Shown: positions 19,324 to 21,800 of the stretch, piece by piece
How positions within the stretch are numbered: position 1 is the stretch's first letter
How the letters are laid out: each line of letters begins with the position of its first letter
From: Burkholderiales bacterium
GTDB taxonomy: Bacteria; Pseudomonadota; Gammaproteobacteria; Burkholderiales; JABEVD01
DNA length: 33,579 nucleotides
NCBI GenBank assembly: GCA_013044025.1
Contig: JABEVD010000014.1
Location: forward strand, 1-33,579
Direction of reading: 5' to 3'
Notes under the pieces: generated by a model
What the model was told of the DNA's origin: nothing
Databases searched by the model: none
The model's input: the letters and a program-made list of their open reading frames with translations, nothing else
Translations under genes and position numbers: made by a program

Positions 19324-19836
19324 ATGAAAAAAATCGCTTTTGCACTTCTCTTTCTCGGAATGAGCGCTGCACACGCCGAAAAAACCGTGATCGACATGCA
19401 TCTCGTCGATGCAAAGGGAGTCGGCAAAATGATCGGACACATCCAGGCTGAAGACAGCCCGTACGGGCTGCTGCTCACCCCGGATCTTTCCGACCTCACC
19501 CCGGGAATCCACGGCTTCCACGTCCACCAGAATCCGGATTGCGGATCCAGGGAGATGGAAGGAAAGATGGTCCCGGGACTTGCCGCGGGCGGACATTACG
19601 ATCCATCCCATGCGGAACATCATGAGGGCCCCTATGCTTCCGGACATCTGGGCGACCTGCCCGCCCTCACGGTCGACGCGGAAGGCCATGCGAAGCTTGC
19701 GGTGCTGGCTCCGCGCCTCAAGGTATCCGACCTCAAGGGAAGATCGCTCATGATCCATGCCGGAGGCGACAACTATTCCGACAAGCCCGCGCTCGGTGGA
19801 GGCGGCCCGCGCATGGCCTGCGGCGTGGCGCAGTGA
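19324..19836 (+). CDS. sodC: Superoxide dismutase [Cu-Zn], periplasmic
   Basis: Converts superoxide to peroxide and oxygen in the periplasm. The 170-residue precursor has a signal peptide (MKKIAFALLFLGMSAAHA). Metal ligands visible by family pattern are H66 and H68 (GFHVHQN), H91 (HYDPSH), H100 (HEGPY), D111 (HLGDLP) and H145 (MIHAGGDN). C73 and C166 would form the conserved disulfide. A good ribosome binding site AAGGAG lies 5 nt before the ATG. It follows nadB by 76 nt and converges on the reductase gene with a single base between the two stop codons. Location beside an NO-detoxification module suggests a role in limiting superoxide/NO chemistry, which is inference. Confidence 0.95.
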   Translation: MKKIAFALLFLGMSAAHAEKTVIDMHLVDAKGVGKMIGHIQAEDSPYGLLLTPDLSDLTPGIHGFHVHQNPDCGSREMEGKMVPGLAAGGHYDPSHAEHHEGPYASGHLGDLPALTVDAEGHAKLAVLAPRLKVSDLKGRSLMIHAGGDNYSDKPALGGGGPRMACGVAQ

Positions 19837-19837
19837 T

Positions 19838-20806
19838 TCAACTGGCGGGAACGAAGGGATCCGCGTAAATGTCCCGCATCGACGCCCCCGCCAGGAAAGC
19901 CTTTTTCTTTGCGGCATTCACCATGGCCGGATTGCCGCAAAGATATACCCTCCATCCGGAAATCCTGGGCACTTCCGCCAGAGCGACATCCAGCACCGTG
20001 CCGAAAGCATATCCCTGCGGAGCCTCCCCTTCGGAAATGCAAGGCGTATAGCTGAAATTCGGATATTTCTCCGCCATCTCGCGCAATTCATCGACGAGAT
20101 ACAATCCGTCGACGTTCAGGCTGCCGTGAAATAGGTGGATCGGTCCCTTGTGCCCGTTGTGTAGCGCATCCCGGATGATTCCGTACAGGGGCGCAAGACC
20201 GGATCCGGTTCCGATCAGAAGCAAGCCCTGATCCGGATTGCCGTGCGCATAAAAGCAGTCTCCGGCAGCTTCGGACATTTCGATCTGATCCCCAGGACCC
20301 AGCACATCGTGGATCCAGGTGCTGACTTTGCCCTGCGGAATCTTCCTCACATGCAGTTCCAGATATCCGTCGAGTTCGGCCACGCTGGCGAGCGAATAGC
20401 TGCGCACCGTGGACTCGTCCTTGAACAGATTGACGTACTGCCCCGCCCGGTATTCGAATGGCCCGGCAGGGTAAAGCTTGACCCGACTGATTTCCGGGTT
20501 GAGCGGCTCGATCCCGATCACCGAAGCGGAAAGTTTTCCGGTCCCTTCCTCGGGGAAGGCGACTTCCAGCTCCTCGTTCGGCCGACAGGAACAGGCCATG
20601 AAATAATTCTGCTCCACCAGAGTGGGCTTCAGCCCCTTCTGCGCTTCGGGAGGAACCTTTCCCTTCACCGCGCGCATCAGGCAGGTCTGGCAAACCCCCG
20701 CCCTGCAGGAGGAAGGCACCGGCACACCACTTGAAGTCAGGCAGTCGAGCACCGACTGCTTCTCCCCGCAGTCGTAGGACTGCCCATGAAAAACGATCCT
20801 GGTCAT
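19838..20806 (-). CDS. [2Fe-2S] ferredoxin / FAD / NAD(P)H oxidoreductase
   Basis: Electron-transfer flavoprotein of the ferredoxin-NADP reductase superfamily, 322 residues from ATG 20806. An N-terminal plant-type ferredoxin domain has C34, C39, C42 and C72 (SSCRAGVCQTC ... YFMACSC). The FAD domain has RSYSLAS. The NAD(P) domain has GTGSGLAPLYG and the C-terminal YLCGNPAMV. Similar three-part reductases serve ring-hydroxylating oxygenases, phenol/methane monooxygenases and CDP-6-deoxyhexulose reductase, but no oxygenase or sugar-modification gene is nearby. It starts 16 nt downstream of a truncated haemoglobin gene on the same strand, so it probably reduces that globin. Partner assignment is inference. 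The longer open frame upstream lacks a fitting N-terminus. Confidence 0.85.
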   Translation of the reverse strand: MTRIVFHGQSYDCGEKQSVLDCLTSSGVPVPSSCRAGVCQTCLMRAVKGKVPPEAQKGLKPTLVEQNYFMACSCRPNEELEVAFPEEGTGKLSASVIGIEPLNPEISRVKLYPAGPFEYRAGQYVNLFKDESTVRSYSLASVAELDGYLELHVRKIPQGKVSTWIHDVLGPGDQIEMSEAAGDCFYAHGNPDQGLLLIGTGSGLAPLYGIIRDALHNGHKGPIHLFHGSLNVDGLYLVDELREMAEKYPNFSYTPCISEGEAPQGYAFGTVLDVALAEVPRISGWRVYLCGNPAMVNAAKKKAFLAGASMRDIYADPFVPAS

Positions 20807-20822
20807 GATGTGCCGGCTCCGA

Positions 20823-21191
20823 TCACTTGCCCAGAACGTCGTTGCGGGTGCTTTCTGCAATCGCCGCAGCCTGGGCGATCAGATCGCCAGGAACATTGAG
20901 TTCGGTAAGGGTGGCCGCGATGTTTTCCATCACTGCGTCGAAATGGGAGTCATTGAGTCCCTGGGCAACGAGGTGGGCATGGCCGCGCCTCATGTCTTCG
21001 CCGGTATAGTTGTTCGGGCCGCCGAACGCCATCGTCAGGAATGCCTTCTGCTTGGCAGCCTGCCTGTCCATGTCGACGCCGTCGAAGAAACGGCTGATCC
21101 GGTCGTCGGCAAGAACCTTGCGATAGAAAATGTCGACGGCCACATTGACGGCAGCTTCGCCTCCGATCTTGTCATACAGACTTTCGCTCAT
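20823..21191 (-). CDS. Group 1 truncated haemoglobin (TrHbN type)
   Basis: 122-residue 2-on-2 globin beginning SESLYDKIGGEAAVNVAVDIFY, with a B10-like tyrosine (Y23), the glycine motif FGGPNNYTG of group 1, and the proximal heme histidine at H71 (MRRGHAHLV). Group 1 proteins of this sort can act as NO dioxygenases when supplied with electrons. The ATG at 21191 has AAGGA 6 nt upstream; an upstream in-frame ATG at 21245 would add 18 residues not seen in the family and sits in the mRNA leader. It is followed by the reductase gene and is divergent from nsrR, with an NsrR-like operator on its promoter. Confidence 0.92.
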   Translation of the reverse strand: MSESLYDKIGGEAAVNVAVDIFYRKVLADDRISRFFDGVDMDRQAAKQKAFLTMAFGGPNNYTGEDMRRGHAHLVAQGLNDSHFDAVMENIAATLTELNVPGDLIAQAAAIAESTRNDVLGK

Positions 21192-21279
21192 AACTTTTCC
21201 TTTCAGTAGTTGGCAGTTCAGCAGCTTGCGGTTTTCCGAATGCAAGATTAAGATCAGAGGAAGATCCCAACCGGTTTAT

Positions 21280-21302
21280 AACATGCATTCGAGATACATG
21301 TT
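21280..21302. promoter_or_regulatory. NsrR-type operator (23-bp palindrome)
   Basis: Left half AACATGCATTC (21280-21290), central G at 21291, right half AGATACATGTT (21292-21302). It has the exact 11-1-11 geometry of the published NsrR motif (AAGATGCATTT, N, and its complement). The halves match each other at 8 of 11 positions, and symmetry extends two more bases each side (21278-21304). The site covers the -10 box and start region of the globin promoter, so bound NsrR should block it; NO damage to the NsrR cluster would release it. Confidence 0.8.
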
Positions 21303-21326
21303 ATTTCCCGCAGATCCATTTGTCAA
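21298..21326 (-). promoter_or_regulatory. Sigma-70 promoter of the globin-reductase operon
   Basis: On the minus strand a perfect -35 TTGACA (21326-21321) is followed after 17 nt by -10 TAACAT (21303-21298). The start would be near 21291, giving a leader of about 100 nt before the globin ATG. The -10 box lies inside the right half of the NsrR palindrome. Confidence 0.75.
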
Positions 21327-21356
21327 CAAGTAATCCGACTTTTTACTGGAAAAATT

Positions 21357-21800
21357 TTGAGGCTCACGCTTTATTCCGATTATTCGCTCCGCGTACTGCT
21401 CTACCTGACCTACAAGGGCGAAGAGACGGTGACGATCACGGAGCTGGCCGAATTCTACAAGAGCTCGCGCAACCACCTGGTGAAGGTGGTGCACAACCTC
21501 GGGATCACCGGATTCATTTCCACTTCCCGCGGAAAACACGGCGGGATCCGGCTGGCGAAACCTCCCGAAGAGATCACGGTGGGGGAAGTGGTCCGGCACA
21601 CCGAACCCGATTTCGAGCTCCTGGAATGCTTCAATCCGGAAACAGACCGATGCGTGATCACGCGAACGTGCCGCCTGAAATCCGTTCTTTTCGATGCACA
21701 GAACGCTTTCATGGCCATTCTCGACCGCTACACGCTGGCCGAAGTGGCCGCCAAGGCGAGGACGCCCGCTGACTTCAAAAAGATCCCGATCGTGCAGTGA
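21357..21800 (+). CDS. nsrR: NO-sensing Rrf2 family repressor NsrR
   Basis: [Fe-S] transcriptional repressor that loses DNA binding on reaction with nitric oxide. The 147-residue protein begins MRLTLYSDYSLRVLLYL, has a winged helix with TITELAEFYKSSRNHLVKVVHNLG and the wing SRGKHGGIRLAKPP, and three cluster cysteines C91, C99 and C105 (ECFNPETDRCVITRTCRLK; CX7CX5C spacing as in B. subtilis NsrR). D8, a cluster ligand in some NsrR proteins, is present. The start is TTG at 21357, chosen as it gives the canonical N-terminus with a GGA 9 nt upstream. It is divergent from the globin gene. Its last 26 nt overlap the 3' end of the opposing ROK kinase gene. Confidence 0.92.
   Translation: MRLTLYSDYSLRVLLYLTYKGEETVTITELAEFYKSSRNHLVKVVHNLGITGFISTSRGKHGGIRLAKPPEEITVGEVVRHTEPDFELLECFNPETDRCVITRTCRLKSVLFDAQNAFMAILDRYTLAEVAAKARTPADFKKIPIVQ

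Follow-up and report, generated by a model that had tools for sequence, protein, structure and literature searches.

A truncated haemoglobin and a ferredoxin-type reductase as a conserved gene pair: a predicted two-protein NO dioxygenase under putative NsrR control

The window, the whole stretch of 33,579 nucleotides that was analysed, is contig 161 of a metagenome-assembled genome (MAG) of 2.56 Mb that is 88% complete (genome label G000). On its minus strand lie a gene for a group 1 truncated haemoglobin (20823..21191) and, behind it, a gene for a [2Fe-2S]-FAD-NAD(P)H reductase (19838..20806). By direct reading, only 16 nt separate the globin stop from the reductase start (20807..20822, minus strand); the two genes form a two-gene operon, and most relatives likewise have little space between them. 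Divergent from the pair, on the plus strand, is an nsrR-type gene for a regulator of the Rrf2 family (21357..21800), with a palindrome in between. The coordinates, strands and gene identities given in an earlier note on this DNA were all correct when checked to the base. An annotation artefact or a mis-binned contig was considered but dismissed: the module recurs in a MAG that was deposited separately, with a reductase of 98% identity, and further members of the genus of the window carry it with reductases that are 70-74% identical. Tail to tail with the reductase gene, and ending 1 nt from its stop codon, is a gene for a Cu/Zn superoxide dismutase (sodC, 19324-19836). It was discarded as a part of the module, which it adjoins at 2 of 80 loci, and the neighbourhood is not conserved.

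The globin consists of 122 amino acids with a Bac_globin domain (Pfam PF01152, E 7.4e-19). Its nearest solved chains, those of cyanoglobin (1s69) and of a Tetrahymena protein (3aq5), both belong to group 1 (best E 9e-36), whereas the match to the group 2 protein HbO is far weaker (E 1.6e-05). Residues Y23, F36, Q44, K47, Q48 and H71 are invariant in all 79 aligned sequences, comprising that of the window and 78 relatives. From an alignment with cyanoglobin, and with the helix numbering of that protein, we take Tyr23 to be residue B10, Gln44 E7, Lys47 E10, Gln48 E11 and His71 the proximal residue F8. By its domain, its nearest chains, His F8, Tyr B10 and the glutamines E7 and E11, the predicted protein is a group 1 truncated haemoglobin (TrHbN). 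The Gln-x-x-Lys spacing of Gln44 and Lys47 is the same as that of Gln50 and Lys53 in Chlamydomonas THB1, and as Lys53 was proposed to be the sixth haem ligand there (PMC4439042), a His-Lys ligation of the haem is possible in the window globin.

The reductase, with 322 amino acids, combines the Pfam domains Fer2, FAD_binding_6 and NAD_binding_1. The cluster ligands C34, C39, C42 and C72 and the RxYS flavin motif (R135-x-Y137-S138) are invariant in 81 of 81 sequences. Its nearest solved chain is a cytochrome P450 reductase (5ogx), the partner of which, a P450, is a haem protein. The protein falls below the cut-off of every curated equivalog (PRK05713, MmoC, BenC, Hcr), the best score being 194 against a required 338 bits. 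As judged by the order Fer2-FAD-NAD and by the four cluster cysteines, it has the BenC/GcoB-type architecture and is none of the named equivalogs. Oxygenase reductases of the BenC/MmoC/GcoB type share with it the three-domain order and the cofactor motifs, but their partner is an oxygenase, whereas the partner in the window is a truncated globin. The reductase is most likely the electron donor to this globin, a prediction that is weighed against others below.

The regulator has 147 amino acids, a TTG start and a Pfam Rrf2 domain. NsrR is the best of all NCBIfam models for it, at 127.6 bits versus an equivalog cut-off of 182 bits, and S. coelicolor NsrR (5n07) is its nearest solved chain. The predicted ligands of an [Fe-S] cluster are Cys91, Cys99, Cys105 and Asp8; the three cysteines are present in 58 of 58 sequences and Asp8 in 57 of 58, and all four align with S. 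coelicolor NsrR. In its predicted Rrf2 fold, its three spaced cysteines and Asp8 the protein fits NsrR, and an operator of the cognate type adjoins its gene. This operator is the palindrome AACATGCATTCGAGATACATGTT (21280..21302), which fits the NsrR consensus gATGyAT-N5-ATrCATc (PMC1274295) perfectly except for the outermost letters. It shows 0 mismatches, and even when 3 are allowed the window holds no other match, with 0.17 expected at such a tolerance. At up to 2 mismatches the entire genome holds 3 NsrR-type sites, versus 0 for a reversed control pattern. A weaker NsrR-type site with 2 mismatches is located 5' of an ORF resembling a TehA-type transporter (L006, G000:C215:8229-8251), a possible second member of the regulon.

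The sole promoter-like site found for the operon is a predicted sigma-70 promoter on the minus strand (21298..21326, TTGACA-17-TAACAT), and many relatives show a TTGACA-like box in the corresponding position. Its -10 element lies under the palindrome, a geometry that fits repression. The core of the operator, with 0-1 mismatch, is found upstream of the globin gene at 59 of the 80 loci described below, versus 9 of 1600 shuffles, and we infer that the operon is controlled by NsrR.

For the analysis of gene linkage, bacterial and archaeal genomes were searched with an alignment of the reductase, blind to the neighbouring genes. The best 80 loci (51-98% identity) stem mostly from Gallionellaceae, Sulfuriferula, a Ferrovaceae MAG and Methylococcaceae (Methylococcus capsulatus, Methylobacter, Methylomonas). 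At all 80 of them the globin gene is found directly upstream on the same strand, mostly with a gap of less than 50 nt, and a divergent nsrR is present at most. The regulator was nevertheless rejected as an obligatory part of the module, as about one quarter of the 80 loci, some of them cut by contig ends, have no nsrR match. Among 250 genomes of the order, orthologues of the globin and orthologues of the reductase, the latter taken beyond a clear gap in scores, occur in the identical 22 genomes (Fisher 5e-32) and are adjacent at the loci fetched; in one additional genome a fusion takes the place of the pair. The linkage in related genomes that the earlier note had asked for thus holds, both at the 80 loci and in the same 22 of 250 genomes.

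A second sample of 321 genomes, including that of the window, was spread over the families of the class. Here the globin was found in 61 genomes and the adjacent pair in 45 besides the genome of the window, with 2 more in which the pair is apparently split by contig ends. The module is present in about 15% of this family-spread sample and is therefore not rare. The claim that the arrangement is unusual was consequently given up: it is common in the sampled gammaproteobacterial families, and an operon of this kind from Legionella pneumophila was published in 2005. Some genomes contain the globin without an adjacent reductase, and orphan relatives of the reductase (37-56% identity) also exist, so that beyond the closest relatives the two genes are not always paired. 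Distance correlations in a mirror-tree analysis were 0.53 for globin and reductase and 0.91 for reductase and nsrR, values that we judge uninformative because the three genes have a common descent and conserved sites nearly saturate the globin.

The distribution of the pair was further compared to that of the flavohaemoglobin Hmp. In the order sample, full-length hmp is present in 0 of the 22 pair genomes and in about 36 of the other 228 (Fisher p 0.028), and in the class sample in 0 of 48 pair genomes versus 23 others among the total of 321 (Fisher p 0.021). As these nominally significant values ignore relatedness, and a few genomes belong to both samples, the mutual exclusion of pair and hmp is only suggestive. 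It does agree with the absence of hmp that the earlier note had proposed as a test. Exchanges between the two also occur at short range, as within genus g169, where G436 has the pair and G298 and G540 have hmp, and within the families f20, f35 and f140. Full-length hmp was found neither in G000, with its 88% completeness, nor in other genomes of the genus, which are up to 99% complete, and an hmp hidden elsewhere in the MAG was rejected on these grounds. As to where NO might come from in this organism, no NirK above the cut-off turned up in the genus sample, and NnrS was found in 2 of 9 genus genomes and not in G000.

In three genomes the domains are joined in a single ORF of the order Fer2-FAD-NAD-truncated globin (L026:1411-3060, 549 amino acids; L172:776-2257 and L173:998-2446, both on the minus strand). 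In these fusions the globin part carries an NAHHWMVI motif and belongs to another, divergent truncated type, so that the joining of globin and reductase probably arose independently of the two-gene operon. The fusions are the strongest non-experimental argument for a reductase that feeds a globin. Relatives of the reductase with 38-40% identity are moreover encoded on two plasmids of Methylocystis rosea and one of M. heyeri. The records of the M. rosea and M. heyeri plasmids were opened, and in them the reductase gene stands directly behind that of a group 1 truncated haemoglobin. The plasmid pairs (L198:3628-4945, L199:3630-4957) adjoin a gene for an RNA polymerase sigma factor; no nsrR is found among their annotated neighbours, and no NsrR operator within 400 nt. 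The constant unit is thus the pair, not its regulator, and the plasmid copies are possibly under different control.

Taken together, gene content, operon geometry, operator, linkage, fusions, intact residues for cofactors and haem pocket and the non-overlap with hmp make it probable in our assessment that the operon encodes a two-protein NO dioxygenase under the control of NsrR. The earlier note had arrived at this reading from the locus itself, and the conserved pair, the operator, the fusions and the absence of hmp alongside have strengthened it, with the exception of the supposed rarity discussed above. Without NO, NsrR loaded with its Fe-S cluster would sit on the palindrome over the -10 element and block the promoter. 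NO would damage the cluster and thus lift the repression, so that globin and reductase would be produced from one message. The ferrous-oxy globin would then convert NO and O2 to nitrate and be left in the ferric state, and the reductase would accept a hydride from NAD(P)H onto its FAD and pass single electrons, probably via the [2Fe-2S] cluster, to the ferric haem. The binding of NsrR, the response to NO, the electron transfer, its route from the Fe-S cluster to the haem and NO as the substrate are here drawn from the biochemistry of NsrR, of truncated haemoglobins and of Fe-S flavoproteins.

The main rival to this scheme sees the pair as a haem reductase system that works at low oxygen, where the reduced globin would reduce NO, nitrite or hydroxylamine, or would denitrosylate, instead of oxidizing NO with O2. 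Such a role would suit many of the carriers, the Gallionellaceae and methanotrophs, which live at the oxic-anoxic boundary, and NsrR responds to NO whether or not O2 is present. The invariant pocket of Tyr-B10, Gln-E7 and Gln-E11 is, however, of the type associated with NO detoxification and a stable binding of O2 in work on the Tetrahymena truncated haemoglobin that is cited in PMC3820574, and the pair is found in the place of Hmp, a dioxygenase, so that we hold the low-oxygen role to be unlikely. It appears less likely again that the reductase serves another acceptor, in general flavin or ferric-iron reduction or as a partner in Fe-S repair, and is merely co-regulated with the globin. The enzyme does belong to a broad superfamily of oxygenase reductases, and its orphan relatives manage without a neighbouring globin, but a separate function is hard to reconcile with the adjacency at 80 of 80 loci, the identical distribution in 250 genomes, the fusions of reductase and globin and a plasmid-borne pair that persists beside a different regulator.

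The least probable of the alternatives, to which we would give very little weight, has the globin act mainly on O2 or peroxide, in delivery, scavenging or as a peroxidase, with the control by NsrR reflecting a general redox stress. Delivery of O2 to methane monooxygenase has been assigned to truncated globins of groups II and III (PMC11102522), and peroxidase roles are likewise reported for other truncated globins (PMC4319818). The convergent sodC in the window would be in line with such a function, but the gene accompanies the module at only 2 of 80 loci, and the operator is of the NsrR type. The module is also present in iron-oxidizing Gallionellaceae, which are not known to have a methane monooxygenase.

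The two-protein NO dioxygenase that we favour is not an Hmp as far as its sequence goes, but it is predicted to work like one. Both systems combine a globin with the chemistry of an FAD/NAD reductase, are placed under NsrR and serve, in the case of the pair by our proposal, NO dioxygenation. Hmp, as in E. coli, is a single polypeptide with a 3/3 globin, whereas the system in the window consists of two polypeptides with a 2/2 group 1 globin, and its reductase has an additional [2Fe-2S] domain. A closer counterpart, likened here by its published description, is the glbN-lpg2536 operon of Legionella pneumophila, an organism without hmp. Rodionov et al. (2005) described this operon, encoding a cyanoglobin and a ferredoxin reductase, as the sole target of NsrR and suggested an oxidation of NO "similar to Hmp" (PMC1274295), and Gardner (2012) cited it in support of ferredoxin reductases as the electron donors of truncated globins (PMC3820574). 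The shared features are an operon of truncated haemoglobin and ferredoxin-type reductase, an NsrR site and the lack of hmp. The Legionella case was, however, a prediction for one gammaproteobacterial genome, while the window represents another lineage with nsrR adjacent and divergent, and the pair of the window type extends to dozens of families, to fusions and to plasmid copies.

An experimental precedent for a two-protein system comes from Chlamydomonas, where nitrate reductase reduces THB1, a truncated haemoglobin of group 1 that functions as an NO dioxygenase, and raphidophyte algae possess a fusion of nitrate reductase with a truncated haemoglobin (PMC4620153). In these systems a group 1 globin is reduced by the flavin part of a reductase that is either a separate protein or fused to it. 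The THB1 system is nevertheless eukaryotic, its partner is nitrate reductase and no NsrR is involved, while the window encodes a dedicated Fe-S flavoprotein. In the open-access literature we found no experimental study of a bacterial globin-reductase pair. The kind of system is thus already known as a prediction, to which the present analysis adds its breadth, the strict linkage, the conservation of the operator, the fusions, the non-overlap with hmp and the plasmid copies.

What supplies bacterial truncated haemoglobins with electrons is a question of long standing, and Smagghe et al. argued that more would be gained from finding the cognate reductases than from additional ligand studies (PMC2323109). 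The operon offers a ready test system: the globin has a fixed partner, the operator is conserved, fusions exist in nature, and carriers are in culture (Methylococcus capsulatus, Methylobacter, Methylomonas, Sulfuriferula, Methylocystis). In a Methyloprofundus methanotroph, a group I truncated haemoglobin gene ranked in the top ten by transcription (PMC8788690). Our data suggest that counts of hmp underestimate the NO-dioxygenase capacity of iron and methane oxidizers.

G000 contains a second group 1 globin (L002:1399-1863, G000:C112) that is 83% identical to the one in the operon. It starts with a hydrophobic stretch, MNNSLPFLILFSPFLFVALRALTAGKPP, that is conserved in the genus and is possibly a membrane anchor. 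At all four loci with the second globin (L002, L118, L121, L139) an NsrR-type site with 0-1 mismatch is located about 90-100 nt upstream; a thioredoxin gene adjoins it at L002, L118 and L121, and a reductase is found beside it at none of its loci. A more far-reaching reading would make the pair a general, horizontally mobile NO dioxygenase that replaces Hmp in iron-, sulfur- and methane-oxidizers, with one reductase in this genus serving two NsrR-controlled globins, the soluble partner and a membrane-anchored paralogue, tandem in one species, that would remove NO at the membrane. We put this forward tentatively and with considerable doubt.

Related globins also occur in other arrangements. Several families have tandem two-domain group 1 truncated haemoglobins in one ORF of about 270-290 amino acids (L139, L143, L145, L146, L148, L153, L193), some of them with an NsrR-like site upstream. 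A membrane protein of the TM_HPP family stands beside the module or beside the globin alone at L015, L016, L190 and L196. At L186:1654-2379 the gene of a related group 1 globin (58%) is followed immediately by that of a NirD-like Rieske protein, a candidate for another electron partner or for a link to nitrite assimilation. In family f95 (class level) a related globin gene lies face to face with an nsrR-like gene and has no reductase (L192:1170-2564, L188:1231-2106), and at L192 it is followed, in place of the reductase, by a single-domain 3/3 globin.
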